The notes beneath the pieces are model-generated. The model made no database searches and had not been told where the DNA came from. It saw only the letters and a list, made by a program, of their open reading frames with translations. Below, in pieces: positions 3,512 through 51,158 of a stretch of DNA of 64,000 nt (the first letter of the stretch is position 1; every line of letters starts with the position of its first letter). Where the stretch lies: NCBI RefSeq assembly GCF_026241095.1, contig NZ_JAPFGB010000005.1:248001-312000 (forward strand), written 5' to 3'. The stretch is from Saccharopolyspora sp. NFXS83. GTDB taxonomy: Bacteria > Actinomycetota > Actinomycetes > Mycobacteriales > Pseudonocardiaceae. The position numbers were made by a program, and so were the translations under genes.

Positions 3512-3660
3512 GTCAGCGGCGAAGCCGCTGAACAGCGACCGCGCACGCAGATCGACCACCCGCGGGTTCTCAGCGGCGTCCTCGCGAGGACGGCTTCTTC
3601 CCGCGTGGCGGAGCCACCGGGGAAGGAGATCCCGCAGCGAGGAAGCCGCTGGGGTTCCGC
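3512..3660 (+). repeat. dispersed palindromic repeat, copy 1
   Basis: Copy 1 of an eight-copy intergenic family, in plus orientation, filling much of the 328-bp divergent gap between the TetR gene and the MpaB-like gene. Leading hairpin CAGCGGCGAAGCCGCTG at 3513-3529. Main stem: CTCAGCGGCGTCCTCGC (3569-3585) against GCGAGGAAGCCGCTGGG (3637-3653), with one T-G wobble and one mismatch. Apical hairpin GTGGCGGAGCCAC lies between the arms. It separates both genes from their promoters or lies within them. No open frame of its own is credible. Confidence 0.85.
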
Positions 3661-3716
3661 CACCCGACCACCCAAGCGAACCCTCCCGAGGCTCCTCAAA
3701 AGCGAATTGAACGCGA

Positions 3717-4979
3717 ATGAATCTTCGTGTCAGCATCGTTCACATGACCTCTGTGGCGCAACGCACTTCCGAAGCGGCGTATCCCACTCGATTTCTCGGG
3801 GCACCGGAACGCTCCGAGCGCATCGGGCGCGTCCTGCGCCTCGCGGCCGGGGTGAGGGAGCTCGACGACGAGCTGGTGGACCGGATCGGGCGGAAGATGT
3901 TCGCCCGCGACGAGGTCGGCGCGCGGCTCGTGCGCGCGATGGGCCGGGACCGGCCGGACGCGGAGCGGGTGACGATGGCCCGCTTCGGACGGGCGCTGGA
4001 GCACGGGATCGACTCGGTGCCGGACGCGCCGGAGCCGCTGCGCGAGTTCTTCGCGGTGGTGGACCGGGTTCCGGACTGGGTCGATTTCGACCAGGTGGAG
4101 CGGGGAGCGCGCGCGATCCGCCGGATGGGCCGCAACGTGGACGACGTGCTGCTGCAGCTGTCGCTGATCGGCGGCTACCGGTTCGGCGGCCCGGCGGACC
4201 TGCTGGTGGCGACCGGTGGCCTCACCGGCTCCACCGCGATGCGTAGGCTCGGCGAGACGAAGAAGTGGGCGCTGGCCATCAGCGAACCGGGCGGAATGCG
4301 CCGCGACGGCCAGGGTTTCAAGCTCACCGTGCACGTCCGCGCCATGCACGCGCTGGTCAACCACCGCTTCGAGACCAACGGCCGGTGGGACTCGCAGCGG
4401 TGGGGCCTGCCGATCAACCAGGCCGATCAGGCCTCGACGCTCGGCCTGTTCAACAGCACCTTGCTGCTCGGGGTGCGGGCGCTCGGCTGGATCGTGACGC
4501 CCGCGGAGTCGCGCGCGGTGATGCACGCGTGGAAGTACGTGGGCTGGTTGATGGGCGTCGACGAGGACTGCCTGTTCGACACCGAGCGCGAGCAGAACCG
4601 CTTCAACTACCACATCCTGCGCGTGCAGGACGACGTCACGCCGGCGGGCGCGGCGTTGTCGGGAGCGCTGGTCGAGGGCAAGCGCAACCTGGACCACGGC
4701 CGGTTCGACGCGGTCGCCGGGCCGTACGCGCGGCTGCGGCTGCTGAGCATGCTGAGGTACTTCCTCGGCAAGTGGGACCTGCGCGACCTGGAGCTGCCGG
4801 TCACGCCGATCTGGGCGATCCCGCCGATCGTCGCGAAGAACCTGGTGCGGTCCGGGCTGATTGCCCGCAGCCGCCGCGGGCGCCGCTACTTGGAACGCGC
4901 CGGTGACCGCTTCGCCGAGCGCGACCTGCGGCGCACCTTCGGCCGGGACGCCCCGGAAATCGGCGCCCTGCCGAGTTGA
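3717..4979 (+). CDS. oxygenase MpaB family / DUF2236 protein
   Basis: About 420 residues of the DUF2236 superfamily. Characterised relatives are the haem latex-clearing protein Lcp and fungal MpaB, both oxidative C=C or prenyl-chain cleaving enzymes. Visible family-type features: the helix GGYRFGGPADLLVATGGL, the following RRLGETKKW, and HVRAMHALVNHRF, which hold candidate Arg/Lys/His haem-pocket residues. No signal peptide is obvious. Two starts are possible, ATG 3717 and ATG 3744; neither has a good ribosome-binding site. The divergent TetR gene is a likely regulator. Family assignment is from memory of motif layout; substrate unknown. Confidence 0.7.
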   Translation: MNLRVSIVHMTSVAQRTSEAAYPTRFLGAPERSERIGRVLRLAAGVRELDDELVDRIGRKMFARDEVGARLVRAMGRDRPDAERVTMARFGRALEHGIDSVPDAPEPLREFFAVVDRVPDWVDFDQVERGARAIRRMGRNVDDVLLQLSLIGGYRFGGPADLLVATGGLTGSTAMRRLGETKKWALAISEPGGMRRDGQGFKLTVHVRAMHALVNHRFETNGRWDSQRWGLPINQADQASTLGLFNSTLLLGVRALGWIVTPAESRAVMHAWKYVGWLMGVDEDCLFDTEREQNRFNYHILRVQDDVTPAGAALSGALVEGKRNLDHGRFDAVAGPYARLRLLSMLRYFLGKWDLRDLELPVTPIWAIPPIVAKNLVRSGLIARSRRGRRYLERAGDRFAERDLRRTFGRDAPEIGALPS

Positions 4980-5012
4980 GCGCTCGTCCGTGAACTCGTT
5001 CTGAGCGGCGGC

Positions 5013-5118
5013 GCGGGTAGCGGAACCTCAGCGGCCCCCTCGCTGCGGGAGCTCATGCCCGCCGTGCACGGCGACATCGCCGTCCGCGCGAGAAGGCCGC
5101 TGAGAACCCGCCGCTGAC
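5013..5118 (-). repeat. dispersed palindromic repeat, copy 2
   Basis: Copy 2, in minus orientation, between the convergent MpaB-like and MFS genes. Main stem on the plus strand: CTCAGCGGCCCCCTCGC (5027-5043) against GCGAGAAGGCCGCTGAG (5088-5104). Read in the element's own (minus) orientation the two non-Watson-Crick positions are T-G wobbles. The apical hairpin is different in sequence here (CGCCGTGCACGGCG) but still pairs. The position after two gene ends would allow a terminator role. Confidence 0.8.
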
Positions 5119-5176
5119 AAGGCAACGAACCCCGAGCACCCGCCCGAACGGGAGATCAACGGCAGGCTTGGAGCGC

Positions 5177-6505
5177 TCACCTCGCCGCGGGCTCGTTCGC
5201 GTCCGCCGCGCGCCGGGCACCGCTCCTGCTCCGGAGGACCAGCACCGATCCCGCCGCCAGCAGGGAGGCGAAGGCCAGGGCGTAGAGGCCGTAGGTGACC
5301 GTTCCGGTCTGCTCCTTGAGGACGCCGAAGCCGAACGGGGCGACGAAACCGCCCAGGTTGCCCAGCGAGTTGATCACGGCGATGGCGGGGGCGACGATGC
5401 GCGGGCTCAGGGTCTGCTGCGGGATGGACCAGAACAGCGGGCTGGCGCTCTTGAACCCCATCGCGGCCAAGCACAGGAACACCAGCGCGGGCCACGGCGA
5501 CACGACCGCCGCCAGCCAGGTCCCGACCGCCGCGGTGAGCAGCGCGATCACCAGCAGCGGGCGCCGATCGCCCATCCGGTCCCCGGCCCGGCCCGCCAGG
5601 TACATCGCGACGATCGCGCAGATCCACGGCAGCGAGGACAGCAGCCCGACCGTGACGTCGTTGGTCCCGTCGATGCGCCGCACGATCGACGGCAGCCAGA
5701 ACGTGTTGGCGTAGATGGACAACTGGATGGCGAAGTAGATCCAGCAGAACAGCAGCAGCTTCGGCTGCACCAGCAGCCGCCAGCGCGAGCCGCCGCGATC
5801 ACCGGAGGACTTCACCACGTCCTCGGCTGCGATCCGGCTCGTCAGCGCGTCCTTCTCGCCGTCGGTGAGCCAGCGCGCGTCGCGGACCTGGGCGTCCAGG
5901 AAGAAGAACGCGATGATGCCGACGACGACCGACAGCGCGCCTTCCAGCCCGAACATCCACTGCCAGCCGTGCGCGCCCAGCAGCCCGTCCATCGACAGCA
6001 GCGGACCCGACAGCGGACCCGAGATGGCCGCGGCGATCGACGAACCCGCGACGAACAGCGCGGTCGCCCGGCCCCGGTGCGAGTCCGGCAACCAGCGGGT
6101 GAAGTAGAACAGCACGGCGGGGAAGAAGCCGGCTTCGGCCGCGCCGAGCAGGAAGCGCAGCACGTAGAACATCTCCGGGCTGGAGACCAGTGCCATCGCC
6201 GCCGAGACCAGTCCCCAGCTGACCATGATCCGGGTGAGCCAGATCTTCGCGCCGAAGCGCTCCATCAGCACGTTGCTGGGCAGTTCGAACAGCGCGTAGG
6301 CGATGAAGAACAGCCCGGCGCCGAACCCGTAGGCGGCGGCTCCGATGCCGACGTCGGCTTCCAGGTGGCTCTCCGCGTAACCGATGTTGGAGCGGTTGAG
6401 CTGGTTGCAGATCAGCATGATCACGAACAGCGGGACGATCCGCCGGAAGATCTTGCCGATGGCGCTGCTCAGCGCGGAGTCGTGCTGATCTGGCGTGAAC
6501 GACAT
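5177..6505 (-). CDS. MFS transporter, anion:cation symporter (ACS) type
   Basis: Twelve-helix membrane transporter of 442 residues. The start of helix 1 (IVPLFVIMLICNQLNRSNIGYAE) matches the ACS family N-terminal pattern (LDRxNxGYA), whose members import organic acids such as phthalate, tartrate or hexuronates with protons. Other supports: LPSNVLMERFGAK and RFLLGAAEAGFFPAVLFYFTRW, family-typical loops. ATG 6505 is preceded by GAAGGAGTGACCG. The substrate cannot be deduced. It stands alone between a repeat and the beta-lactamase locus. Confidence 0.85.
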   Translation of the reverse strand: MSFTPDQHDSALSSAIGKIFRRIVPLFVIMLICNQLNRSNIGYAESHLEADVGIGAAAYGFGAGLFFIAYALFELPSNVLMERFGAKIWLTRIMVSWGLVSAAMALVSSPEMFYVLRFLLGAAEAGFFPAVLFYFTRWLPDSHRGRATALFVAGSSIAAAISGPLSGPLLSMDGLLGAHGWQWMFGLEGALSVVVGIIAFFFLDAQVRDARWLTDGEKDALTSRIAAEDVVKSSGDRGGSRWRLLVQPKLLLFCWIYFAIQLSIYANTFWLPSIVRRIDGTNDVTVGLLSSLPWICAIVAMYLAGRAGDRMGDRRPLLVIALLTAAVGTWLAAVVSPWPALVFLCLAAMGFKSASPLFWSIPQQTLSPRIVAPAIAVINSLGNLGGFVAPFGFGVLKEQTGTVTYGLYALAFASLLAAGSVLVLRSRSGARRAADANEPAAR

Positions 6506-6665
6506 CGGTCACTCCTTCGGTCGCGGCCCGGCACCGCCGGCACCGGACGAGCCTCACCGTAGGAGCGACGATCACCGCGCGTCCAAACCCAAATCGGCAA
6601 CGTGCGATACCCGAATTGACTTGATCGGAGTTCGCCACGGCACGACCGCGCGGAACCGCCGTGCC

Positions 6666-7568
6666 TCAGCCGGTCCGCAACCGGTCGTGAAGCACGCGGG
6701 CGACGCGCGCCATGAGCGCCTCGGCTTCCGGCTGCGTCGCCGCGGGCACCCGCGATTCGGTCAGCGCCGCGACGGCGAACACCCCGCCGCCCGCGTGCTC
6801 GACGACGCCGACCTCGTGGCGCAGGTTCAGCACCGTCCCCGTCTTCGACGACCACGTCGAGGCGTCGGAGCTGAAGTCCGGCGCGAGCCGGTGCCGGATC
6901 AGGTTGGCGCCCATGAGCTCCCGCACCCGCTCGGCGACACCGCCGTCGATCGCCGACGGCGTCCAGAGCGCCTGCAGGAGGTTCACGAAGTCGCGCGCCG
7001 AACCGGAGTTCGCGCGGGTCACGTCGAGCTGCGCGATCGGGTGCCCGCGCCCGGCGGTGGCGGCGCCGATCGCCAGCGAGTGCGCCAGGTGCACGTCCGC
7101 GGTGTCGAACCGCTCCGCGGGCGTCTCGCTGAGGTCGCCGACGCGATGCCGCGCGGTGATGCCGCGCAGCCCCCACTCCCGCAGCATCCGGGTGACCTCC
7201 GCGGGCGGGGTGATCCCGAACAGCGAGTCGGCCGCGACGTTGTCCGACAGCGCCATCGCCAGGTACATCAGGTCGTCGACCGCCACCCGCGCCGGATGCC
7301 GGAACCGGCTCAGCCCGGTCGGCCCGGGGGTGGTGACCTGACCGGGCAGCACCAGCAGCTCGGTGGCGCCGTCGAGCTCGCCGCGGCGGATCCGCTCCGC
7401 GGTGGCAGCGGCCAGCGGGATCTTGATCAGCGAGGCGACGGGGTGGGTGATGTCCGGGTCGATGCCGATCTCCCGCCCGGAACGCAGGTCGCGCACCAGG
7501 AACGAGCCGCGCAGGCCGGCGTCGTCGAGTTCGGCGACGAGCTCGCTGATCAGTGCTTCGGCGTTCAC
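6666..7568 (-). CDS. cytoplasmic class A beta-lactamase-like protein (BlaB-type regulator candidate)
   Basis: Serine beta-lactamase/PBP-fold protein of 300 residues with all three active-site motifs: SLIK (46-49), SDN (108-110) and KTG (242-244). Unlike a secreted beta-lactamase it has no signal peptide. It lies 34 bp downstream of a LysR gene that is divergent from a true secreted beta-lactamase. This arrangement recalls the blaA-blaB regulatory pair described next to the Streptomyces cacaoi beta-lactamase, where BlaB is a non-secreted protein with beta-lactamase-like motifs. A regulatory or sensing role is inferred from context; a cytosolic hydrolase is the alternative. Confidence 0.75.
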   Translation of the reverse strand: MNAEALISELVAELDDAGLRGSFLVRDLRSGREIGIDPDITHPVASLIKIPLAAATAERIRRGELDGATELLVLPGQVTTPGPTGLSRFRHPARVAVDDLMYLAMALSDNVAADSLFGITPPAEVTRMLREWGLRGITARHRVGDLSETPAERFDTADVHLAHSLAIGAATAGRGHPIAQLDVTRANSGSARDFVNLLQALWTPSAIDGGVAERVRELMGANLIRHRLAPDFSSDASTWSSKTGTVLNLRHEVGVVEHAGGGVFAVAALTESRVPAATQPEAEALMARVARVLHDRLRTG

Positions 7569-7602
7569 CTGGTTCTCCAGCTGGAAGGGACGGTGCGGGC
7601 GT

Positions 7603-8475
7603 TCACGCGTCCGCGCCGAGGCAACGCGCGATGCCCCGCCACAACGCGGTGCGCAACCGGTCGGCGTCGGGACCGGCCTCCGCGGTGACGTCGTAGCCGC
7701 GGGCCAGCGGCAGCTCGGCGATCGGATGCCAGTGCAGCGCGAACTCGGCCGCCTGCGCCCGCGAGCACAGCAGCAGGTCCGCCGAGCCCAGGACGTCGGC
7801 GACGCCCGCGCTCAACGACTCTGCCACGACGACCTGCGTGGGTCGCAGCCCCACCGCGTCGCGCACCCGCAGCAGCCGGTCCCGCACATGCGGCACGTCG
7901 TCCTCCGGCTGGATCCACACCCGGCGGCGCGGCGCCCGGCCCGTGCGGCCGATGCGCAGCGAGTCCAGGTGCACCGCCGCGCGGTCGAGGTCCACGGCCG
8001 AGGCGACGCCCAGCGGCACGGTCCACACCGCCTCGTCGGCGGGCACGGCGGTGAGCGCGGCGCGGACGTCGTGGGTGTGCGCGAAGTCGAGCCGTTCCGC
8101 GGGAGCGGCCGGGCGGAATTCGAGGAACAGCTCGTGGGACCGCGCCTCCGCGTCGAGCTCCGCGAGCGCCCGGGTGGGGCAGGTGGCGGGCACCGCCAGC
8201 CGCAACGGCCGCAGCCGCGCCCGCTTCGCGTCCTGCTCCAGCGCGTCGGCGAGCCGCACCAAGCGGCGTGCCCGCGGCAGCAGGTCCCGGCCGAACGGGG
8301 TCAGCCGCGCCCGTCGGGCCGAGCGGTCGAACAGCCGCTCCCCGAGGTGGCGTTCCAGCGCGGCGATGCGCCTGCTGGCGACCGGCTGCGGGATGCCCGC
8401 CGCCGCCGAACCGCCGGTGAAGCTGCCTGCTTCGCTCACGCTGACGAACGCCCGACAGCCGCCCACGAGATCCAT
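7603..8475 (-). CDS. LysR-family regulator of the beta-lactamase locus
   Basis: LysR-type regulator of 290 residues: N-terminal winged helix ([18 protein letters not shown] then [21 protein letters not shown]) and a C-terminal effector domain. ATG 8475 ([10 protein letters not shown]) fits the family N-terminus; the upstream GAGGTG is very close, so initiation may be leaderless or weak. It is divergent from the class A beta-lactamase at 8582 with a 106-bp gap, the AmpR/BlaA arrangement, and co-directional with the beta-lactamase-like gene that follows. Control of the beta-lactamase is inferred from this position and from the palindrome in the gap. Confidence 0.85.
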
Positions 8476-12161: not shown

Positions 12162-12262
12162 GGCGGTAACCCTGTTCTGGGACTGTGTTCTACGAAAAAC
12201 GTGCACCAGCGAAACTTCGCGAAACCGCGACGCGCACCACAGCGCCGTGGTCGCCCTGTCCT

Positions 12263-12410
12263 GTCAGCGGCGAAGGCGCTGAGCGGCGCTCGCAACCGGC
12301 ACCGCCGCGGGTTCTCAGCGGGATTCTCGCGAGGACCGCATCTTCCTTCGTGGCGGAGCCACCTGGGAAATTGATCCCGCAGCGAGGATCCCGCTGAGGT
12401 TCCGCTACCC
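12263..12410 (+). repeat. dispersed palindromic repeat, copy 3 (compensatory stem)
   Basis: Copy 3, plus orientation, between the di-iron oxygenase stop and the reductase start. Stem CTCAGCGGGATTCTCGC (12314-12330) against GCGAGGATCCCGCTGAG (12382-12398): relative to copy 7, two adjacent base pairs are replaced by two others on both arms and one pair becomes a T-G wobble, so pairing is kept while sequence changes. Apical hairpin GTGGCGGAGCCAC is conserved. Confidence 0.85.
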
Positions 12411-12437
12411 GCCCCCTGCGCCGAACGACCCGCGATC

Positions 12438-13349
12438 TCAGATCATGTGCGTGCGGCGGTAGATCGCCATTGCCGGCCGGGTGAGCAGTCCGGCTTCGGA
12501 CAGGAAGTCCATCAGGTGCACGCAGCTGTTGCGCAGCATGGACTTGCGGTGCTCGTTGCGCTGCACGGCGGCCACGGCCCGCTCCGGGTCGAGCCCCACC
12601 GACTTGTAGACGTCCTTCTGCACCATGTTCGTCACGACGACGTTCGCGACCAGCGAGATCAGCAGGGCGCTGGTGTGGCGGCGCACCGGGCCGGCGCCGC
12701 GCAGGCTCTCCTTGATCTCCTGGCGGGCGAACTTCATGTGCCGCGATTCCTCCACCACGTGGATCTTGCTGGTGGTGCGCACGATCGGCAGCACGTCTTC
12801 GCCGCGCATCCAATCGCGCTGCATGACGTCGAGGACCTCTTCGGCGACGAGGATCCCGCCGTAGGCCGATTCCGCACTGGCGATCGTCTTGAACAACCGG
12901 CCGAGCTGGGCGACGAACGGCGGCGGCAGGTAGGGGGGCACCTCCATCTTCGCGCAGGCCCGCGCGAACATGATCGAATGCCGGCATTCGTCGGCGATCT
13001 CGGTGAGCGCGAACCGGAACTCCGCGTTGGCGGGGTCCTTGACGTACTGGTCGCGCAGGATCATCTGCTGCAGGATCATCTCGAACCAGATGCCGATGCT
13101 CATGATCGAGCAGACTTCGTGCCTGGTGAGCGTGATCTGCTGCTCGGGGCTGAGCTCGTCCCACAGCGGAGTCCCGTACAGGGTGCTCCACTCCGGGTTG
13201 AGGCCGTGGCGGTCGGCGGGCAGCGGCGATTCCCAGTCCACTTCCGTCGCCGGGTCGTAGGACAGGGTCGCGGCCGAGTCCAGCAACCGCTGCGACACGT
13301 CCTCGTCCGCGGCGGTTCGCTGCGCGGGTTCGGTTGGTGTGCTGGTCAT
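12438..13349 (-). CDS. AurF-family di-iron oxygenase
   Basis: Non-haem di-iron protein of 303 residues related to AurF, the p-aminobenzoate N-oxygenase. Helical ligand motifs are visible: EIADECRHSIMF (ExxxH type), VAEEVLDVMQRDWM and HVVEESRHMKFARQE (ExxRH), giving the Glu/His set of a carboxylate-bridged di-iron site. It lacks a signal peptide and is cytosolic. ATG 13349 is fixed by GGAGGT 7 nt upstream. The ferredoxin-reductase 276 bp downstream on the same strand could supply electrons. I recall a comparable pairing beside mycobacterial fprB, which supports a conserved functional unit. Substrate unknown. Confidence 0.85.
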   Translation of the reverse strand: MTSTPTEPAQRTAADEDVSQRLLDSAATLSYDPATEVDWESPLPADRHGLNPEWSTLYGTPLWDELSPEQQITLTRHEVCSIMSIGIWFEMILQQMILRDQYVKDPANAEFRFALTEIADECRHSIMFARACAKMEVPPYLPPPFVAQLGRLFKTIASAESAYGGILVAEEVLDVMQRDWMRGEDVLPIVRTTSKIHVVEESRHMKFARQEIKESLRGAGPVRRHTSALLISLVANVVVTNMVQKDVYKSVGLDPERAVAAVQRNEHRKSMLRNSCVHLMDFLSEAGLLTRPAMAIYRRTHMI

Positions 13350-19486: not shown

Positions 19487-19654
19487 CCCCCTGCATACCG
19501 GAATACGACGCGGTGAAACGGTATCCGCGACCGATGAAATCCTGATGAAACGATGATCGTCGCGGTCACCACCGCCGCCTCGGCACTAGTTCGCGTCCGC
19601 GATGACGCACGCAAGAGGATTCAAGGTCCGTGCAGAATGATCTTTTCGTCGGTG

Positions 19655-19825
19655 TCCTGCCAGCCGCGAAGCCGACGACCAGTGACCACCTGCGCAGGAC
19701 GACGACCGGCGGGTTCCCAGCGGCTTCCTGACGAGGACGACGATCTCGCCGTGCAGGGCTGCTACTGGGGAGTCGCGGCGGTACTCGGCAACGGGGCAGC
19801 GGGAAACCGCTGCGGTTCCGTGCGA
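19655..19825 (+). repeat. dispersed palindromic repeat, copy 4 (diverged)
   Basis: Most diverged member, in the 361-bp gap between the PPE-like start and the SARP stop. Recognisable modules in order: CCAGCCGCGAAGCC, GCGGGTTCCCAGCGGCTTCC, GACGAGGACGA, and the closing AACCGCTGCGGTTCCG. Stem pairing is poor, so it may be decayed. The rest of the gap (from 19487) holds no gene. Confidence 0.6.
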
Positions 19826-19847
19826 TGACCCGCCGCGCAGGCCCTGC

Positions 19848-22733
19848 TCAGAGGAACACTTCTCGGAGACCGGCGATCTCCGCGGTCGGGCCGGTCAGCT
19901 CCGCGAGGGCTAGCGCCGAGTGGAAGTGCTCCTGAGCCTCGCGGTGCCGCCCTGCTCGCAGGCAGGTCTCGGCCAAGCGCTGGTGCATCTCCAGTTCCAC
20001 CGAAGCCGGGCCGTCCGCGGGGAACGCTTTCAGCGCCCGGCGCTGCGAGTCGAGCGCACCTACCGGGTCGCCCAGTTCGTACTCGGCCGAGCCCAGCCTG
20101 GACAGGCTCGCCGCGTACAGCACGAGGTCGCCGAGCTCCTCGGCGGAATCGACTGCTTGACGCAGCGCGGTCGCCGCCTCGGAGAAGCGGCCGACGACGA
20201 GGTGAACGCTGCCGGAGTAGCACAGCGCTCGCGCCATCATCGCGGCGCTGCCGAGCTTCTCGCCCAGCGCATGGATGCGCTCGAAGCGTTCGAGGGCCTC
20301 GTCGTGGCGGTGGTCGACGTGCTGGAGGTAGCCGAGGTACGAGTCCGCGCGCTCGACCAGCCAATCGTCGCCCAGCTCGACGGCCGCCTCGAGCGCTTCG
20401 CTCAACGCGTCGACCGCTTCGACCTTCGCCCCGGTCAACCCGGCCACCACGCCCAAGGCGCCCAAGGCGCGGGATTCCTCCCAGCGGTCGCCGATGTTCC
20501 TGGCGGCGTGCAGAGCATCGCGGAAGCAGGAGCGCGCCGGTTCGTGGCGGCCCTGGATGAGTTCGACGCAGCCGAGCCAGAAGCGTAGCGCCGCGACCAT
20601 CCGCCGCTCGGTGGCCTCCGCGAGGTGTTCCAGCGCGATCTCCAGGGCGGCCCGGCACTCGTGGATCCGTCCCCGCCGCAGGAGGTAGTCGACGCCGGCC
20701 TCGGCGAGCAGGCATGCGTGGTCCACGTTTCCGGTGGCCACGGCGTGCGAGACCACGTCGGACAAGTCGCCCGCCGAGTTCAGCCATTCCACGGCGTCCC
20801 GCACCCCGCTGAACGGCGTCGAGCGGGTCCACGGTTCGTCCGGTCGTCCCGTGCGCTTCCAGTCGACGGCGCGGCGGGCCGCGGTCAGGTGGAGTTCGAG
20901 CAGCCGGAGGTCGGCGGCGGCGGTCTCGGCCGGGTGCTCCGCGGCGAGCCGCCGCGCGAACACGGCGACCAGATCGTGCAGCCGGTACCGATCGACGGCG
21001 GGTTGCTGCACCAGGTTCGCGTCCACCAGGTTCTCCAACACCTGACCGGCTCGCGCGGGCGAGCAGTTCAGCATCGCCGCCATCGCGACGCGGTCCAGCT
21101 CGGCTGACGGCGTCCGGCTCAGCGCCCGGAACGCGCGTTGTTCGATGCCGGGAATCCGGTGGTAGGACAGGCGAAACGCCGCTTCCACGCTCCGATCGCC
21201 TGCTGTCAGCTCGCCGAGCCGGGCGTCATCGTCGGAGAGCCGGGAGACCAGGTCCTCCAGTGTCCACATCGGTCGGTGTTGCAGTCTTGCCCCCGCGATG
21301 CGCAGCGCCAGCGGCAACCACCCGCACAGCCGGGCCAGTTCCCGGGCCGCGGCCCGCTCCCGATCCGTCGACGGGGTGCCGACGATGCCGCCGAGCAGTC
21401 CCTGCGCCGCGTCCACGTCCAGCGGCCCCAACGAGATCCGGCGCCGCACGTCCAGCCCGGTCAGCCGTCCGCGGCTGGTCACCAGCACTCTGCTTCCGGC
21501 CCCGGCGGGCAGCAGCGGACGCACTTGTTCGGGACTCGACGCGTCGTCGAGGATCAGCAGCAGCCGCAGCGGAATCGTCGCCGATCGCCACCCCGCCGCG
21601 AGCTCGTCGAGATCATCCGGGATGGCGCTGTCATCGACGCCCACGGCCCGCAGCAGCCTCCTCAGCACTCGCTGCGGCGCCAACGCATCGCGAACCTCGC
21701 TGTGGCCGTGCAGGTCCACGAACAAGCAGCCGCCGGAGCATTCGGCACGCAACACCCGCGCGGCCGTCACGGCGAGCGCGGTCTTCCCGGAGCCCGCCAC
21801 GCCGTCCACGGCGTCGACCGTCACCGCCCCTCCGCCCGCCGACGCGGTCAGCAGTGCCAGCTCCCGATCACGGCCGGCCAGGTCGCCGACGTCGGCCGGG
21901 AGCTCGTCGCGCGCGGCCCCGCGCTGGACGGTCGCGCGTGGCGTGCGGGGCGCGACGTCCTCGCCGAGCAGCACCGCCTGCTGCACGCGCCGGGTCTCGG
22001 CGCCCGGTTCGACGCCCAGTTCCTCCACCAGCCGGTGGCGCAGTTCGGCGTACACCGCCAGCGCGTCGGCCCGTCGGCCGCCGTCGTGCAGCGCGCGCAT
22101 CAGCAGCGCGGCCAGAGTCTCGTTGTCCGGGTGCGCCGCGAGCAGCGCGGACAACTCCTCCACGACCTCGGCGTGGCGACCGAGCCGCAGCTCCCACTCG
22201 GCCTTCTGCTGCGCGAGCGCGATCCGCCGCTCGGTCCAGCGGCGCCGCTGGCCCGCCACGAACGGACCGGGCAGCCCGGTGAGCGGCTCGCCCCCGAACA
22301 ACGCGAGCGCTTCGGCGCACAGCCCCACCGCCGCCGCTAGATCACCTGCCCGATGCGCCGCGCGGGCTTGCGCCGCGAGCTCCTCCAGCAGCACCGAATC
22401 CACCCGCACCCGGTCGCCGTGGAACCGGTACCCGCCGCGGTCGCCGCTGATGACGGAGTCACCGCCGAGGCTCTTGCGCACTCGGTAGACGTAGCCCGGC
22501 ACGACCTTGAGCCCGGTGCCTGGCGGCTCCTCGCCCCACACCGCGTCGAGCAGTTGCTGCCTGCTGACCGTCACGTCCGGCCGCAGCAACAACCCGGCGA
22601 GGAACGCCTGCTGGCGGACCGGCCCGAGGTCCAGTGGCGTCGTACCGCGCCAGGCTCGCAACGGACCGAGGACGGTGAAGCTCAGTCCGCACTCGGCGGA
22701 CACCGGTGGGCCGTTCACCTGAACCGGCGGCAT
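19848..22733 (-). CDS. SARP-family regulator with NTPase and TPR domains (AfsR-like)
   Basis: Large regulator of 961 residues. In order: OmpR-like winged helix (about 16-110, QQAFLAGLLLRPDVTVSRQQLLDAVWG), bacterial transcriptional activator helices (about 115-255, ending HRLVEELGVEPG), an NB-ARC/STAND NTPase with Walker A GVAGSGKTALA (about 315) and Walker B LLLILDDAS, a winged-helix region, and C-terminal TPR-type helices. This is the architecture of AfsR and other SARP activators of secondary metabolism. No biosynthetic cluster lies beside it in the window, so it may act pleiotropically. Confidence 0.9.
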   Translation of the reverse strand: MPPVQVNGPPVSAECGLSFTVLGPLRAWRGTTPLDLGPVRQQAFLAGLLLRPDVTVSRQQLLDAVWGEEPPGTGLKVVPGYVYRVRKSLGGDSVISGDRGGYRFHGDRVRVDSVLLEELAAQARAAHRAGDLAAAVGLCAEALALFGGEPLTGLPGPFVAGQRRRWTERRIALAQQKAEWELRLGRHAEVVEELSALLAAHPDNETLAALLMRALHDGGRRADALAVYAELRHRLVEELGVEPGAETRRVQQAVLLGEDVAPRTPRATVQRGAARDELPADVGDLAGRDRELALLTASAGGGAVTVDAVDGVAGSGKTALAVTAARVLRAECSGGCLFVDLHGHSEVRDALAPQRVLRRLLRAVGVDDSAIPDDLDELAAGWRSATIPLRLLLILDDASSPEQVRPLLPAGAGSRVLVTSRGRLTGLDVRRRISLGPLDVDAAQGLLGGIVGTPSTDRERAAARELARLCGWLPLALRIAGARLQHRPMWTLEDLVSRLSDDDARLGELTAGDRSVEAAFRLSYHRIPGIEQRAFRALSRTPSAELDRVAMAAMLNCSPARAGQVLENLVDANLVQQPAVDRYRLHDLVAVFARRLAAEHPAETAAADLRLLELHLTAARRAVDWKRTGRPDEPWTRSTPFSGVRDAVEWLNSAGDLSDVVSHAVATGNVDHACLLAEAGVDYLLRRGRIHECRAALEIALEHLAEATERRMVAALRFWLGCVELIQGRHEPARSCFRDALHAARNIGDRWEESRALGALGVVAGLTGAKVEAVDALSEALEAAVELGDDWLVERADSYLGYLQHVDHRHDEALERFERIHALGEKLGSAAMMARALCYSGSVHLVVGRFSEAATALRQAVDSAEELGDLVLYAASLSRLGSAEYELGDPVGALDSQRRALKAFPADGPASVELEMHQRLAETCLRAGRHREAQEHFHSALALAELTGPTAEIAGLREVFL

Positions 22734-35536: not shown

Positions 35537-35631
35537 TCTTCGTCGAACGAGCCGCCCCGGAGCACCGTCGTCCACCGGAGAACGCGGTCCGGTGCACGAG
35601 GCATCGCGAAATGAGCTTGATCTGCTTCCCG

Positions 35632-35780
35632 CCGGCGTCGAAACTGCTCAGCGGTGACCGCGCACGCTGCAGGACCACCGGCGGGTGCTCAGCGGCTTCC
35701 TCGCGAGGACGGCCAGTTCGCTGCGCACGGCATGCAGGAGCAAGGGATCCCGCAGCGAGCAAGCCGCTGAGGTTCCGCTG
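35632..35780 (+). repeat. dispersed palindromic repeat, copy 5
   Basis: Copy 5, plus orientation, in the 366-bp gap between aldO and the next MFS gene. Left arm CTCAGCGGCTTCCTCGC and right arm GCGAGCAAGCCGCTGAG with one C-C mismatch. A second partial unit, GGGCTCTCAGCGGCTCCGGCCGC, lies at about 35812-35834. No gene in the gap. Confidence 0.75.
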
Positions 35781-35902
35781 AGCGACCGACAACGCAGACC
35801 GAGTGCACAGGCGGGCTCTCAGCGGCTCCGGCCGCTGACAAGACGCGGACGAAGTACCGGTCCGAAGGCTCTCCCCATGACGTCCGCAGGAGCTGCTCGA
35901 TC

Positions 35903-40574: not shown

Positions 40575-40634
40575 GTGCGCTCCTTCATCCTCGTGGGTAG
40601 TGCGGTACTTCGTCTTCGTTCTTCGAACCAGATC

Positions 40635-40788
40635 CGCGTTGCCGGAACCTCAGCGGCTTTGCGGGATCGACCTCCCCAGTGGCTCCGCCGCACGCGAAGT
40701 CGCCGTCCTCGCGAGGAGGCAGCTGAGAACCTGCCGGTGGTCGGCTCGCCCTGGTGGTCACCGCTCAGCGGCTCCGCCGCTGAGCAGC
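40635..40788 (-). repeat. dispersed palindromic repeat, copy 6
   Basis: Copy 6, minus orientation, just upstream of the BVMO and downstream of the MFS gene. The leading hairpin is GCTCAGCGGCTCCGCCGCTGAGC on the plus strand near the right end; the apical hairpin is reduced to GTGGCTCCGCCGCAC-like bases and the main stem is partly degraded. No gene in this gap. Confidence 0.75.
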
Positions 40789-40872
40789 CACAAGCCAAGA
40801 ACGCCGCTCACCTGGAGCGACGGGCTCAGGGACGGCTCTGAGCACCCGACCCGCCGAGCAAGCGAGGACTCA

Positions 40873-46590: not shown

Positions 46591-46696
46591 AGCCCCTCCT
46601 GCCCGCGACCTGCGCAGCGGATCCGGTCGCGGAACCCCAGCGCTCGTCTTCGATCTCCCGTCCCGGCGTGCGCCTGGGGTTCGTGATCGTCGTCCT

Positions 46697-46843
46697 GTCA
46701 GCGGCGAAGCCGCTGAGCAGTGACCACCCACCAACCGGCACCGCCGCGGGTTCTCAACGGCTTCCTCGCGAGGACGGCGTTTTTCCTCGTGGCGGAGCCA
46801 CTGGGAAAGCGATCCCGCAGCGAGGAAGCCGCTGAGGTTCCGC
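46697..46843 (+). repeat. dispersed palindromic repeat, copy 7 (reference copy)
   Basis: Best preserved copy, plus orientation, between the convergent lexA-like and permease genes. Leading hairpin CAGCGGCGAAGCCGCTG; main stem CTCAACGGCTTCCTCGC (46753-46769) against GCGAGGAAGCCGCTGAG (46820-46836) with one mismatch; apical hairpin GTGGC-gga-GCCAC (46789-46801) extended by TTTCC/GGAAA. Closing GGTTCC follows the right arm. Confidence 0.88.
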
Positions 46844-46879
46844 GATCCGACCCTTGCGCAGAACGGGGACGAGGGGCTC

Positions 46880-48964
46880 TCAGCGGTTTCGGGAGAGCAG
46901 CCAGATGAAGTACGGGGCTCCGATCAGGGCCGTCATCAGGCCCGCGGGGAGCTGGTCCGGCGCGATGGCGGTGCGACCCAAGGTGTCCGCCGCGCACACC
47001 AGGATGCCGCCCAGCAGTGCCGCCACGGGGAGCACTCGGGAATGCCGCCTGCCCACGATCGCGCGCGCCGCGTGCGGAGCGACCAGCCCGACGAACGCGA
47101 GCACCCCCACTCCCGCCACGGCGGTGCCGGTCAGCAGGACCGCGCACGCGAGCAGCAGCAACCGCGCCTTCGGCACCGGCACGCCCAGCACCCGCGGCGT
47201 CTCGTCGTCCACCGACAGCAGGTCCAGCTCGCCGCGGGCCCGGATCAGGACCGGGATCAGCAGCAGCAACGCCAGCGCCATCGGCACCAGGTGCTCGTAG
47301 GTCCGCCCGTACGTCGAACCACCCAGCCAGGTCAGCGCCTTCGTCTCGTTCCACGGGTCGGACAGCGTGATCAGCAGCGTCACCAGCGCCTGGGTGCCCG
47401 CTTGCGCGCCGAAGCCGATCAGCACCAGGCGCTCGCCCGCGAACCCGCCCTTCGCCGCCATCGCGAACACCACGGCCGTCGCCACGGCGGCACCGACGCC
47501 CGCGCCGCTCGCCTGGATCCAGAAGCCCGCGCCGGACCACAGCGTGATCACGGTGACCGCGCCGACGCCCGCGCCTCCGGCGACGCCGATGATGCCCGGA
47601 TCCGCCAGCGGATTGCGCGCCACCGCCTGGATCACCGCACCGGCCAGCGCCAGCGCGGCACCGGCCAGCAACGCGGCGACCACTCGCGGCACCCGGTTCG
47701 CCAGCACGCTGGTGACGACCGGCCCGGCCTGCCCGGTCAACCAGTTCGCCAGGTCGCCCAGCAGCAGCAAGGTGTCGCCGAGCAGCACCGACCCCGTCAC
47801 CACCCCGGCCGCCGCGAGCACCAGCCCGCCGACGACCAGCCGGTGGCGCAGGGCCGTGACCCCGCCCCGGACACCGGCGGCGGGCGGTTCCGCCGACGTG
47901 GCGGTGACCCGGATGTTGCGGCACAGCACCATCAGGAAGACCGCGCCGAGCAAGGTCGTCGCCACGCCGGTCGGGACCTCCAGCGCTCCTTGCGCACCGA
48001 TCACGGCGCGCAGCAGCACGTCCGCGGCCAGCAGCAGCACCACTCCGGTGGCGCCGGAGATCGGGATCAGCGCCGCGTGCCGGTGCAGGCCGGGCACCTG
48101 GTTCGCCAGCAGGCGCACCAGCGCGGGCGCGGCCAGCCCGACGAAGCCGACCGGTCCCGCCAAGGTCACCGCCGACGCCGCGAGCAGCACCGCCAGCGCG
48201 ATCGACGCGAACCGGATCCGCCCCACGTGGACGCCGAGGCTCCGCGCGTGGTCGTCACCCAGGTAGACCAGGTCGAGCCGGCGGGCGATCGCGAGCAGCG
48301 CCACCACCGCGACGCCGATCACCGGCGCCAGCGTCCGCACCCCGTCGAGCCCGGTCTGGCCCAGCGAGCCGGAACCCCAGGCGAACAGCCCGCGGGTCTC
48401 CTGGTCGAACAGCAGCAGCAGGATCCGAGTCAGGGACGTCATCGCGAAGGCGGTCGCGGTGCCCGCCAGCACCAGCCGCACGATGCCGGTGCCGCCGAGC
48501 CCGGACAGCGAGATCACCAGCAGCGCCGCCCCCAGCCCTCCGGCGAACGCGATGCCCGTCGTCCCCAGCAGCGGCAGCGCGGTGCCGAACGCCGCGACCG
48601 CGACGATCGCCAGGTGCGCGCCGGCGTCCACGGCCAGCGTGTCCGGGGACGCCATCACGTTGCGCGCCACCGATTGCAGCACCGAACCCGCCACGCCGAG
48701 CGCGCTCCCCACCAGCAGCGCCGTCAGCAATCTCGGCAGCCGGGACTCGACGACGACCGCGGCGGCCGAGTCGGTCCCGCCGCCGAACACCCACCGCAGC
48801 ACGTCGGCGACGTCCACCGAGGAGGTCCCCTGGGTGAGGTGCACCGCGGAACCCAGCACGACGAACGCGCCCAGCACGAGCACCAGCAGCACCAGCCGCG
48901 CGCTCCGGCGCACCGGTGCGGCCGGAGCGGCGGGCGGGCGGATCAGGGTCTTGCCACCGTTCAC
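46880..48964 (-). CDS. iron-siderophore ABC permease, tandem-fused FecCD
   Basis: Membrane permease of 694 residues, two FecCD domains in one chain (about 20-345 and 365-690), as in FhuB, forming the whole transmembrane channel. Each half has the family hallmarks: RLPRLLTALLVGSALGVAGSVLQSVARN / RVPRVVAALLAGAALALAGAVIQAVARN, and the coupling-helix region GPVGFVGLAAPALVR / GVLAFVGLVAPHAAR. Last gene of the importer operon, 7 bp after the binding protein. Confidence 0.93.
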   Translation of the reverse strand: MNGGKTLIRPPAAPAAPVRRSARLVLLVLVLGAFVVLGSAVHLTQGTSSVDVADVLRWVFGGGTDSAAAVVVESRLPRLLTALLVGSALGVAGSVLQSVARNVMASPDTLAVDAGAHLAIVAVAAFGTALPLLGTTGIAFAGGLGAALLVISLSGLGGTGIVRLVLAGTATAFAMTSLTRILLLLFDQETRGLFAWGSGSLGQTGLDGVRTLAPVIGVAVVALLAIARRLDLVYLGDDHARSLGVHVGRIRFASIALAVLLAASAVTLAGPVGFVGLAAPALVRLLANQVPGLHRHAALIPISGATGVVLLLAADVLLRAVIGAQGALEVPTGVATTLLGAVFLMVLCRNIRVTATSAEPPAAGVRGGVTALRHRLVVGGLVLAAAGVVTGSVLLGDTLLLLGDLANWLTGQAGPVVTSVLANRVPRVVAALLAGAALALAGAVIQAVARNPLADPGIIGVAGGAGVGAVTVITLWSGAGFWIQASGAGVGAAVATAVVFAMAAKGGFAGERLVLIGFGAQAGTQALVTLLITLSDPWNETKALTWLGGSTYGRTYEHLVPMALALLLLIPVLIRARGELDLLSVDDETPRVLGVPVPKARLLLLACAVLLTGTAVAGVGVLAFVGLVAPHAARAIVGRRHSRVLPVAALLGGILVCAADTLGRTAIAPDQLPAGLMTALIGAPYFIWLLSRNR

Positions 48965-48971
48965 CGCGCGG

Positions 48972-49949
48972 TTACGCCTTCAGGGCGGCGACGGCGGCGT
49001 CGACGTACTGCGCCATGGAGCGGGGACCGCCGAACATCCACAGCGAATCGGGGAAGCGGTGCACCTTGCCGCCGCGCACGAACGGCAGGCCCTCCCAGAT
49101 CGCGTTGCCCGCGAGCTCGTCCGCGTACGGGTCGCTCTGGGCGCTCGCCCCGTACCAGAACCGCACGTCCGGCAGCGCGGTCAAGCCCTCCACGTCGGCC
49201 CGCGCGAGTCCGTACGCCGGGTCGCCCGCCATCGGCCACGCGTTGCGCAGGCCGATGCGCTCGAACACGTCGGACACGAGCGAGCCCGCGGCGAACGGCC
49301 GGATGCTCACCGCCCCCGAGGTCACGTAGGCGTCGGAGAACGCGACCGGCTCGCCGAGCGCACCCGCCCGTTCCACCGCGGCCCGCCCCTCGGCGATCTT
49401 CGCGTCGAACTCGGACCGCAGCTGCGCCGCCCGGCCCTCGGTGCCGGTGGCCTGGGCGATCATGTCCACGTTCCGGAACATGGCGCCGATCGAGCCCTTC
49501 GCGTCGCCGCCCTTGATGACGATCACCGGCGCCACCGATTCGACCTGCTCCAGCGCGCCTTCGGTCAAGCTGTCGGTGACGACCACCAGATCCAGGTCCA
49601 GCGAGCTGAGCGTGTCGATGCTCGGCTCTCCCCGAGTGCCGATGTCGGTGGAGGTCCCGTCCAGCGGAGCCGCGCTCACCCACTCGCCATAACCGTCCAC
49701 ATCGGACACGCCGACCGGCGTCACGCCGAGCGACACGAGGCTTTCGGTGCCGTTCCACTCGGTGGCCGCGACCCGCTTTGCCGGCCCGTCGAGCGTGACC
49801 TCCTTGCCGCGGGCGTCGACGATCGTCGCCATCGGCTCGCCGCCGCTCGCGGGCGCGTCGGCGCCACCTGCTTGCTCGGTGGTGCCGCAGCCTGCCGCGA
49901 ACAGCGCGACGACCGCGGCCAGCCCGATGATCGCACGGGTGCTGCGCAT
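48972..49949 (-). CDS. iron-siderophore substrate-binding lipoprotein
   Basis: Extracytoplasmic receptor of 325 residues. The lipoprotein signal ends ALFAAGC. Mature part is a FhuD/FepB-type fold: VTLDGPAKRVAATEWNGTESLVSLGVTPVGVSD, SIDTLSSLDLDLVVVTDS, and APVIVIKGGD. It delivers a ferric siderophore to the fused permease. ATG 49949 has AGGAGAG upstream. The gap to the ATPase gene is 37 bp, so ATPase, receptor and permease form one operon. Confidence 0.93.
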   Translation of the reverse strand: MRSTRAIIGLAAVVALFAAGCGTTEQAGGADAPASGGEPMATIVDARGKEVTLDGPAKRVAATEWNGTESLVSLGVTPVGVSDVDGYGEWVSAAPLDGTSTDIGTRGEPSIDTLSSLDLDLVVVTDSLTEGALEQVESVAPVIVIKGGDAKGSIGAMFRNVDMIAQATGTEGRAAQLRSEFDAKIAEGRAAVERAGALGEPVAFSDAYVTSGAVSIRPFAAGSLVSDVFERIGLRNAWPMAGDPAYGLARADVEGLTALPDVRFWYGASAQSDPYADELAGNAIWEGLPFVRGGKVHRFPDSLWMFGGPRSMAQYVDAAVAALKA

Positions 49950-49986
49950 GTCTCTCCTGCCTTGCAGTGGTGACCGGCGACGCCGG

Positions 49987-50826
49987 TCAAGCCGATGGGA
50001 TGCGGACGCCGGAGGAGTTGAACCGGCCGACGGCGCGAGTGCGGATGCGCCCGCCCTCCGGATCGGCCTCCACGTCCACCTGGATGCCGTAGGCGCGGGT
50101 GAGGTTCACCGAGGTGAGCACGTCGCGAGGGGCTCCTTCCGCGGTGACCTGGCCGTCTTCCAGCAGCAGCAACCGGTCCGCGACGGCGGCGGCCTGGTCG
50201 AGGTCGTGCAGCACCACACCGACGCCGACGCCGTGCTGATCGGCGAGGTCGCGGATCACGTCGAGGATCTCCACCTGGTAGCGCAGGTCGAGGAAGGTGG
50301 TCGGCTCGTCGAGCAGCAGGAGTTCGGTGTCCTGCGCCAGGCAGCTCGCCAGCCACACCCGCTGCGCCTGCCCACCGGAGAGGGCCTGCACCGGCCGGTC
50401 GGCGATCGCGGCGAGCCCGGTCAGCGCCATCGCGCGCTCCACCGCCTCCGGCCCCTCCGGATCTCGCCCGCCCCAGCGGGACCGGTGCGGGTGGCGCCCG
50501 AACTCGACGAGCTCCCGCACGCTCAGCCCGCCCGGCGCCGTCCGCTGCTGCGACAGCAGCGTGATCCGGCGGGCGAGTTCTTTGCCGGACAGCGCCCGCA
50601 GTTGGGCACCGTCGGCGAAGGCGACCTCACCGGCGGTCGGCGGGTGCAGCCTGGCGAGGGCGCGCAGCAACGTCGACTTCCCGCTGCCGTTCGGACCGAT
50701 CAACGCGGTGACCGCACCCGCGTCGAGCGAGATCGACGCCGCGCGCACCACGACGTCACGCCCGTAGGCGACGTCGACCTCACGGGCGCGCACCCCGGCC
50801 GCGAACTGCGAAGGAGTCAAGGACAC
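49987..50826 (-). CDS. iron-siderophore ABC transporter ATPase
   Basis: FepC/FhuC-type ATPase of 279 residues: Walker A GPNGSGKST, Q-loop LLSQQRTAPGGLSVRELVEFGRHPHRS, signature LSGGQAQRV, Walker B LLLLDEPTTFLD, H-loop VLHD. First gene of the importer operon. The iron box directly upstream indicates repression by an iron-loaded DtxR/IdeR-type regulator. Confidence 0.95.
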   Translation of the reverse strand: MSLTPSQFAAGVRAREVDVAYGRDVVVRAASISLDAGAVTALIGPNGSGKSTLLRALARLHPPTAGEVAFADGAQLRALSGKELARRITLLSQQRTAPGGLSVRELVEFGRHPHRSRWGGRDPEGPEAVERAMALTGLAAIADRPVQALSGGQAQRVWLASCLAQDTELLLLDEPTTFLDLRYQVEILDVIRDLADQHGVGVGVVLHDLDQAAAVADRLLLLEDGQVTAEGAPRDVLTSVNLTRAYGIQVDVEADPEGGRIRTRAVGRFNSSGVRIPSA

Positions 50827-50836
50827 AGCCGTACAC

Positions 50837-50855
50837 TAAAGACAGGCTTACCTAA
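50837..50855 (-). promoter_or_regulatory. iron box (DtxR/IdeR/DmdR type)
   Basis: TTAGGTAAGCCTGTCTTTA on the minus strand, 10 bp before the ATPase start. It matches most of the TTAGGTTAGGCTnACCTAA consensus, strongest in the first half. Operon expression should rise when iron is scarce. Confidence 0.8.
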
Positions 50856-50951
50856 CTCACAAGAGTGTCAACCGGCACAATCCCGACAACCACGCCCAGC
50901 AGCGACCCGCTCACGGAACGAACCCGCCCGGAACCCCCTGCCGCCAAGCAC

Positions 50952-51036
50952 CACGCGGCGAAGCCGTGCAGTAGGCGAGCGAAGCGAAGCCTGCCTTGCG
51001 GCCGAAGGCCGTGCCTGTATGCGCGAAGCGCATAGC
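50952..51036. repeat. array of GAA-loop mini-hairpins
   Basis: Four short hairpin-like units in 85 bp: CGGC-GAA-GCCG, GCGAGC-GAA-GCGAAGC, CGGCC-GAA-GGCCG and ATGCGC-GAA-GCGCAT. Three are perfect stems and all have the same GAA loop closed by C-G. The leading hairpin of the dispersed repeat (AGCGGC-GAA-GCCGCT) has the same design, and this array sits where that hairpin would be in copy 8. Confidence 0.6.
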
Positions 51037-51056
51037 CCACGTCGAAAAGCCGCCCA

Positions 51057-51158
51057 CCCGCGGGTTCTCAGCGGCTTCCTCGCGAGGACAGCTCTTTCCC
51101 TCGTGGCGGAGCCACTCGGGAAAAAGATCCCGCAGCGAGAAGACAGCTGAGGTTCCGC
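51057..51158 (+). repeat. dispersed palindromic repeat, copy 8
   Basis: Copy 8, plus orientation, in the 354-bp gap between the importer promoter and the multicopper oxidase stop. Left arm CTCAGCGGCTTCCTCGC and apical hairpin GTGGCGGAGCCAC are intact, but the right arm has changed to GCGAGAAGACAGCTGAG and pairs poorly. The rest of the gap holds the iron box and the mini-hairpin array. Confidence 0.8.

Follow-up and report, generated by a model that had tools for sequence, protein, structure and literature searches.

An intergenic hairpin family found mostly just past stop codons in Saccharopolyspora and related genera, and its possible service at gene ends

The question raised by this locus is why a long palindrome should recur between genes in eight copies within 64 kb of the genome of Saccharopolyspora sp. 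NFXS83 (this whole 64-kb stretch is referred to here as the window), and what keeps its stem paired. An earlier note had described eight copies, all of them intergenic, and had preferred to explain them by a structured RNA. All eight were found at or near the positions given for them and on the strands given, and by the gene calls made here 8/8 are intergenic, the overlap of the outermost HMM edges with a called gene not exceeding 6%. The change of two adjacent stem pairs on both arms of copy 3, which the note had also reported, is real. The copies, and one possible remnant, are as follows.

Copy 1, 3495..3684 (+): 5' hairpin CAGCGGC-GAA-GCCGCTG at 3514-3530; core 3554-3669 (R1 126.5 bits); right tail to about 3684; in a divergent gap, an exception to the stop-facing rule.
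Copy 2, 4985..5119 (-): core 5011-5119 (R1 75.6 bits), without the usual 5' hairpin; in a convergent gap, with about 40 nt between the stem foot and the end of the + gene 3717-4979 (stop at 4979).
Copy 3, 12251..12430 (+): full element; core 12299-12414 (R1 120 bits); about 32 nt between the stem foot and the stop codon of the - gene 12438-13349.
Copy 4, 19640..19845 (+): full-length, degenerate; core 19701-19830 (R1 35.3 bits); 3' end adjoins the stop of the - gene 19848-22703.
Copy 5, 35615..35806 (+): subfamily with a different inner stem and apex; core 35673-35787 (R1 95.2 bits); in a tandem gap, sense orientation.
Copy 6, 40632..40805 (-): core 40632-40742 (R1 67.7 bits), right arm partly deleted; 5' hairpin 40765-40783; in a tandem gap, sense orientation.
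Copy 7, 46681..46866 (+): well preserved; core 46738-46852 (R1 120.8 bits); in a convergent gap, with 36 nt between the stem foot and the stop codon of the - gene 46880-48964.
Copy 8, 50990..51180 (+): core 51052-51167 (R1 118.4 bits), preceded by a variant 5' module in which small GCGAAGC-type palindromes are chained; 22 nt between the stem foot and the stop codon of the - gene 51181-53019.
Possible ninth-copy remnant, 3420..3465 (-): next to copy 1, and limited to the 3' foot; weak match, 15 bits.

The stop-facing rule, viz. that the 3' end of the element looks towards the stop codon of a gene on the opposite strand, is obeyed by copies 2, 3, 4, 7 and 8 and not by copies 1, 5 and 6. The element is about 185 nt long, and its 116-nt core forms a two-level stem-loop whose foot, on inspection of the consensus, reads GGCGGGTT.../...GGTTCCGCC, with the motif GTT running in the same direction on both arms. 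The loop of the 5' hairpin is GAA or GGA, i.e. a C-GNA-G triloop, in 43 of the 46 copies that were scored (45 of 91 being unscorable), and the unpaired motifs GAGGACRGC and GATCCCGCA are mostly kept at loci from nine relatives. In most copies the conserved ends, judged from the consensus, are not inverted repeats. Under a relaxed match, TIR-like inverted pairs about 247 bp apart were seen at two copies, and 17/121 of the relaxed TIR-motif matches lie at elements, so that such pairs are not a family-wide feature. The consensus has no T run after the stem, and a terminator pattern scan at copy 7, the single copy scanned, found none.

The eight copies belong to a much larger family. In 1.254 Mb of NFXS83 there are 60 HMM matches, of which 59 have less than 10% coding overlap, and copies are thus not equally frequent inside and between genes. 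A sister species (G001) has 73 matches in 0.766 Mb (36 and 37 in two scans). By extrapolation the totals would be about 330 copies in NFXS83 and about 650 in the sister species, and the family probably amounts to several hundred copies per genome in Saccharopolyspora-type soil bacteria. Homologues occur within Saccharopolyspora and in 7 of the 30 other genera tested in its family; among the matches listed for a loose pattern in named genomes, the carriers are Saccharopolyspora, Actinopolyspora and Halopolyspora, and a stricter 34-position pattern gave no match in the named genomes. There was likewise no match in plasmid and phage records, with one or two copies as the query, or, for the element motif, in viral contigs. 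No title or abstract about such a family was found among the literature listed, and the element is not described in the examined parts of two papers on the S. erythraea transcriptome (PMC3610266, PMC3827479).

The placement of the copies is far from random. For copies of at least 60 bits (44/60 in NFXS83 and 62/73 in G001, leaving out 16 and 11, respectively), compared with 2000 draws of random positions in element-excised gaps, an antisense stop codon is no farther than 25 nt from the 3' edge of the element in 31/44 cases in NFXS83 (null mean 2.1, maximum 7) and in 44/62 in G001 (mean 3.0, maximum 11). The same is seen in two smaller samples, G002 (6/9; null 0.5, maximum 3) and G018 (2/4; null 0.2, maximum 3). 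Divergent gaps are underused, with 2/44 copies in NFXS83 (null 13.3, minimum 3) and 1/62 in G001 (null 15.5, minimum 6). The distance from stop to stem is 21-47 nt in 53/65 cases. In a third set of copies an antisense stop is faced by 45/54, at 27-58 nt in 41 of these 45, and when only other genera are considered the corresponding numbers are 36/44 and, for the distance of the stem foot, 33/36. Within tandem gaps the antisense orientation is weakly preferred in NFXS83 (14 copies against 9 in sense) and moderately so in G001 (23 against 9). The statement of the earlier note that the contexts vary does not stand in the larger set, where copies keep away from divergent gaps and tend to turn their 3' end to a stop codon. 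Its view that a simple terminator does not explain the copies is reasonable for U-tract terminators, judging by the scan of copy 7, but most of the contexts are gene 3' ends. The placement behind stop codons is an observation absent from that note.

The presence and orientation of the element differ between species even where the flanks align. Of 20 scorable NFXS83 sites, 13 carry the element in the same orientation in G001, 5 carry it there in the opposite orientation and 2 are empty, whereas for 30 scorable G001 sites the numbers in NFXS83 are 13, 7 and 10. Examples of gap lengths without and with the element are 3 vs 242 nt, 5 vs 361 nt and 18 vs 215 nt, and one copy is nested inside the remnant of another. 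At one site identity is 97% in the flanks and 84% in the element, whose stem changes are paired. However, it would be incorrect to interpret this as a general replacement of copies, since among the 13 sites with the same orientation the element is better conserved than its aligned flanks at 8 and less well at 5. Empty-site comparisons revealed no target-site duplication, the compared spacers being too diverged to show one. No transposase or other autonomous partner and no long version of the element was found in the stretches scanned (18% of the NFXS83 genome). A RAYT/IS200-type transposase was considered as partner and rejected, as it is absent from 8/13 carriers: Y1 (PF01797) has 0 matches in NFXS83 and is present in 5/13 carriers and 1/9 non-carriers (controls positive in 5/14), and the carriers lacking it include all five with at least 61 element matches (G000-G003 and G018).

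The pairing of the stem is maintained by compensatory changes, as had been suspected from the copies in the window. In 33 copies, 104 cells are changed on both sides, far above the 34.7 ± 6.8 obtained by shuffling (0/500), in which kinship among copies is ignored, and 91.4% of the cells are paired as against 42-54% under slid structures. The claim that all wobbles are G-T in the orientation of the element, on which the argument for an RNA read in that orientation was built, disappeared in the larger NFXS83 set, where 61 G.T and 50 A.C mismatches were counted with one mostly kept T.G pair set aside. The argument finds no support either in the set dominated by the sister species (24 G.T, 24 A.C), and these two sets pooled give 85 G.T and 74 A.C across 101 copies. 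Covariation in a repeated hairpin is thus not by itself evidence of RNA function, as the mismatches of the resident NFXS83 copies show no strand preference.

The reading that we prefer, with a probability of a little under 0.6 on the sequence evidence, is that these copies form a dispersed, non-autonomous, mobile, REP-like family serving as hairpins at gene 3' ends. The REP/MITE-like option of the earlier note gains in this respect from the high dispersed copy number, the differences in presence and orientation, and the location at gene 3' ends; the element is, however, neither a RAYT-linked REP nor a U-tract terminator. Copies would be inserted, or retained, at the 3' ends of genes, where a strong hairpin within the 3' UTR could mark the end of the gene in either direction, by stopping or slowing RNA polymerase or by blocking 3' exonucleases or re-initiating ribosomes. 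As the copies are mostly just past a stop and mostly face the same way, they may act as ready-made gene ends. The pairing of the stem would be kept chiefly among spreading copies and through the replacement of one copy by another, and not via selection on the RNA of each resident copy. At 200 element-free gene ends with gaps of at least 150 nt, the strongest predicted folding falls within ~36 nt past the stop. The stop spacing of the element agrees with the finding of PMC4824070 that an E. coli terminator requires a distance of about 27-30 nt to the stop codon. One S. hirsuta copy lies between two same-strand genes in what is apparently one operon, a setting that sits uneasily with full termination. 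Other points against this reading are the missing T run after the stem, the weak orientation preference in the tandem gaps of NFXS83 and the low share of unusually stable folds among orthologous spacers lacking the element (5 of 17 scorable).

A structured RNA acting in cis and read in the orientation of the element, as the note preferred, appears quite improbable. The strong covariation is in its favour, as are a T.G pair in the foot, retained in 29/45, 51/55 and 55/60 copies of the three sets, and the unpaired motifs conserved among relatives. In the third set, which includes related copies, G.T also exceeds A.C (70 to 40), made up of 56:35 in other genera and 14:2 in two further Saccharopolyspora species, where two pairs account for 10 of the 14 G.T, and due to this selection on an element-strand RNA may act there. 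However, apart from the lack of a G.T excess in NFXS83 and the G001-rich set, the predicted folding energies of the two strands are nearly equal (-64.7 vs -63.7, the element strand being the stabler in 95/160), most copies come after an antisense gene, whose transcript would read the opposite strand of the element, and Rfam 15 gave no family for the window at the gathering threshold and two chance-level matches only for seven loci at a relaxed one. For REP/BIME sequences of E. coli a role as gyrase or nucleoid-protein sites absorbing supercoils has been proposed, and by analogy the element could be a DNA-level site at gene ends, which we consider very improbable. The location at convergent and tandem 3' ends, the sequence specificity of the unpaired motifs and the C-GNA-G triloops of the 5' hairpin, a kind of loop that is extra-stable in DNA, would fit such a site, but a supercoiling role does not call for so tight a spacing from the stop, and we know of no protein that binds the element.

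It is also possible, though doubtful, that gene 3' ends are targeted at the step of insertion, by a machinery measuring from a ribosome at termination, from RNA polymerase at a pause or from a terminator hairpin (the target of group IIC introns), and that the resident copies have no function. The narrow spacing of the 3' end from the stop across several genera points in this direction, as do the 18 antisense and 3 sense copies in tandem gaps of a 400-kb stretch of G001, the symmetric mismatches of two sets, which resemble neutral decay, and the element-free spacers of a few nt. However, no such machinery was found in the 18% of the NFXS83 genome scanned, and a comparison of 81 target ends with 1596 others revealed no fixed motif, either at the stop itself or upstream. 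That element-free spacers carry a pre-existing hairpin as target is not a general rule: 28 orthologous spacers were compared, of which 5 of the 17 scorable have an unusually stable fold (z < -2) and 6 of the 28 are only 1-19 nt long, and at such short sites a pre-existing hairpin is unnecessary. A spread coupled to gene ends, with the site set by distance from the stop codon and not by sequence, and mostly in one orientation, is in our judgement unlikely, and to our knowledge insertion set in this manner has no precedent in bacterial mobile DNA.

Compared with known systems, the family reading of mobile gene-end hairpins has several partial parallels. MITEs, to which the element may or may not belong, are short, non-coding, dispersed and present or absent between species, all of which applies to the element; however, its ends are mostly not inverted repeats, no parent transposon was found in the stretches scanned, and no target duplication was seen in spacers too diverged to show one. 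Integron attC sites are similarly imperfect palindromes past a stop, mostly in one orientation, with a variable stem and conserved unpaired bases, but the element is dispersed among syntenic chromosomal genes, and its GTT has the same direction on both arms, in contrast to the inverted GTT/AAC core boxes of the attC consensus. The GTAG-/CGTC-tagged REPs and BIMEs, as described in PMC3733652, are high-copy intergenic palindromes, presumed mobile, with a possible role at gene ends, and like the element they favour tandem and convergent gaps downstream of ORFs. However, the REP palindrome is 20-40 bp in length as compared to ~185 nt with a 116-nt two-level stem-loop, it has a GTAG/CGTC foot tag which the element, by inspection of its consensus, does not, and the element differs further by the 8/13 carriers without Y1 transposase and the narrow spacing of its 3' end to an antisense stop. 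With intrinsic terminators, and with the ribosome termination structure of PMC7518266, the element shares a hairpin past the stop at a distance at which terminators work. Unlike intrinsic terminators, it has no U tract and is one repeated family with conserved loops and turnover between species, and its stem begins farther from the stop than the folding peak centred ~5 nt downstream that PMC7518266 describes.

If the preferred reading is true, one mobile hairpin family supplies several hundred gene ends per genome across a group of antibiotic-producing bacteria, and its species-to-species turnover affects the evolution of 3' UTRs, operon boundaries and convergent genes. A placement mechanism, if there is one, would read the termination of translation or transcription, and as the stop spacing is repeated across genera without a sequence target, selection at gene ends and placement by the reading of termination can be tested against each other. 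At the 81 target ends, as compared to the 1596 others, A/T is more frequent at the upstream third codon positions and TAG stops are commoner (14/81 vs 128/1596), while T is enriched downstream of the stop, where the element's own tail starts.

All eight copies claimed for the window by the earlier note are present and are members of one family. On the element strand, i.e. in the element's own orientation, a typical copy begins with a left tail of about TTGATCnTTGTCTTG, followed by a 5' hairpin whose loop is mostly a C-GNA-G triloop (44 of the 46 that could be scored, 45 of 91 copies being unscorable), a spacer, and a main stem with 22 pairs in the model and the foot GGCGGGTTCTCAG/CTGAGGTTCCGCC. 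Beyond it, the conserved internal loop GAGGACRGC/GATCCCGCA leads to an inner stem and an apical hairpin, and in the right tail conservation stops about 27 nt past the stem foot. Some copies, e.g. copy 8, carry an alternative 5' module of small GCGAAGC-type palindromes; two copies have long near-identical right flanks in common, suggesting larger recent duplications. Variant forms are found at these places:

Window 50960-51040; loci L091 and L105: chains of GCGAAGC-type palindromes, the 5' module of one subfamily
NFXS83 contig C1, 25145-25308; G001b 213116-213223 and 388829-388924: internal-deletion derivatives, both tails kept, main stem or inner part lost

An iterated HMM search of 1.254 Mb (18% of the NFXS83 genome) gave 60 non-overlapping matches, some of them fragments, of which 59 are less than 10% coding by our own gene calls; linear extrapolation gives about 330 copies per genome. 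The sister species G001 has 73 matches in 0.766 Mb (36 in one stretch, 25 and 12 in others), extrapolating to about 650. Covariance model R1 (E 1e-5, strict filters) matches 13 of 60 genomes, NFXS83 included: 6/6 of its own genus, 7/30 others of the family, each in another genus, and 0/24 from other families of the order. Among the matches listed, the named carriers are Saccharopolyspora hirsuta, oryzae, shandongensis, elongata and sp. HNM0986, and in other genera Actinopolyspora biskrensis, righensis, alba and mzabensis and Halopolyspora algeriensis.

The main new result is the placement of the element behind stop codons. Copies of at least 60 bits with flanking gene calls (16/60 excluded in NFXS83, 11/73 in G001) were compared with random positions in element-excised gaps, using our simple gene caller, whose starts are rough and stops less so. 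In NFXS83, 33 of 44 copies (null 19.4, maximum 29) have an antisense downstream neighbour whose stop points toward the element, as do 52 of 62 in G001 (null 27.3, maximum 41); that stop is no more than 25 nt from the element's 3' edge for 31/44 (null 2.1) and 44/62 (null 3.0). Divergent gaps hold only 2 copies in NFXS83 (null 13.3) and 1 in G001 (null 15.5), the antisense:sense ratio in tandem gaps alone is 14:9 and 23:9, and of all 60 NFXS83 matches, 59 have two neighbours, 43 of them facing an antisense gene. Small samples from two other genomes agree on the stop within 25 nt (G002 6/9, null 0.5; G018 2/4, null 0.2), the antisense strand there being not clearly above the null (6/9 vs 4.2; 3/4 vs 1.9). 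The stop lies 21-47 nt from the stem foot in 53 of 65 distances, several of the other 12 being apparently anchored on the wrong motif. In a third set of copies, mostly collected by sequence motif and not by position, from HNM0986, G004 and G005 (two other species of the genus) and other genera, 54 of 61 copies have gene calls on both sides (7 lack one), and 45 of the 54 face an antisense stop, 41 of these 45 at 27-58 nt, most commonly 38; for the other genera alone, the figures are 36/44 and 33/36.

According to PMC4824070, an E. coli terminator reaches full activity once it lies more than about 27-30 nt past the stop, and the spacing of the element is in line with this distance. Further, in 200 element-free NFXS83 gene ends predicted folding peaks in windows starting 0-30 nt past the stop, with a 44-nt window below -22 kcal/mol in 106, and REP elements, according to PMC3733652, likewise prefer gene 3' ends. 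Therefore, the favoured reading is that the element is a mobile, REP-like hairpin and that its copies serve as gene ends. Its turnover and placement are established by comparison, and the gene-end activity is inferred; resident copies would act at the level of transcription, decay or translation re-initiation. Full termination is disfavoured, as no T tract follows the stem in the one copy checked, which also sets the element apart from U-tract terminators, and as a copy of S. hirsuta lies inside what we read as an operon:

Locus L131, 1-600: S. hirsuta copy between two same-strand genes resembling oxalyl-CoA decarboxylase and CoA-transferase (named by eye)

The main rival is targeted insertion, with resident copies that have no function. 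No fixed motif was found before or across the target stop when 81 target ends were compared with 1596 others; the target ends are richer in A/T at third codon positions, and TAG stops are commoner at them (14/81 vs 128/1596).

Turnover of the element shows in a comparison of NFXS83 and G001 along 300 kb and 66 kb, where aligned blocks are 93% and 91% identical. At 20 scorable NFXS83 sites, G001 carries a same-orientation element 13 times, one in the opposite orientation 5 times and none twice; for 30 scorable G001 sites the figures in NFXS83 are 13, 7 and 10. At the 13 same-orientation sites element identity is 55-90%, below the aligned flanks at 5 and above at 8; in the clearest case the flanks are 97% and the element 84% identical, the differences including paired stem changes, and at one G001 site a new copy is nested inside the remnant of an old one. 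Part of the between-species covariation thus reflects copy replacement. Element-free spacers can be as short as a few nt between two stops, e.g. 7 nt. Other strong, unrelated hairpins, e.g. around GGTGAACGCCTCC, occupy spacers where the sister species carries the element (syntenic G002 stretches L116-L117; NFXS83 C56:189421-189505).

The compensatory stem changes reported earlier hold across 33 copies, with both-sided changes at 19 of 35 pairs (104 cells vs 34.7 in shuffles, 0/500) and 91.4% of stem cells paired. Variability is greatest in the middle of the main stem, where changes from one Watson-Crick pair to another outnumber single-sided ones, above all in the G001-rich set. Were every copy under selection for an RNA of the element strand, G.T mismatches should outnumber A.C. 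Counted without strand shadows and without pairs that have a commonest state other than Watson-Crick, the mismatches in 46 NFXS83 copies are G.T 61, A.C 50 and other 78, so that the four-of-four G-T pattern from which the earlier note had argued for such an RNA is absent across this genome; a second set of 55 copies, mostly from G001 with 6 from two other genera, gives 24, 24 and 60 (G.T vs A.C in both sets pooled, p 0.43). However, the 61 copies of the third set have G.T 70 vs A.C 40, and an RNA may be selected on the element strand outside the NFXS83 species group, although related copies share many of these mismatches. With the pair filter run on each part separately, the 14 HNM0986/G004/G005 copies give 14 vs 2 (10 of the 14 G.T at two pairs) and the 47 from other genera 56 vs 35 (13 at one pair). 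The three sets sum to 155 vs 114, many mismatches being common to related copies. A T.G pair in the stem foot is mostly retained (29/45, 51/55 and 55/60 in the three sets).

Among known systems, RAYT-linked REPs were rejected (the foot tag is absent, and Y1 transposase is absent in 8 of 13 carriers), the element is not a known RNA of Rfam (window searched at gathering threshold, seven loci at a relaxed one), and it does not fit the integron attC consensus; membership among the MITEs is possible. Ten neighbour genes in the window are of mixed kinds, with no functional theme visible:

TetR regulator; MpaB/Lcp-type oxygenase; two MFS transporters; AurF oxygenase; BTAD regulator
two flavin/pyridine-nucleotide oxidoreductases; FecCD; multicopper oxidase

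A second high-copy palindromic family was also seen:

Locus L078, 5091-5415 (NFXS83 contig C56, 145091-145415): perfect hairpin around GGACCGTTCGTCC / GGACGAACGGTCC

Searched with a 3-kb query containing it, two sister genomes showed 122 and 106 matches, the repeat accounting for most among the matches listed. By a strict motif, it lies in convergent gaps for 11 of 12 classified NFXS83 copies and 6 of 10 in the G001 stretches.
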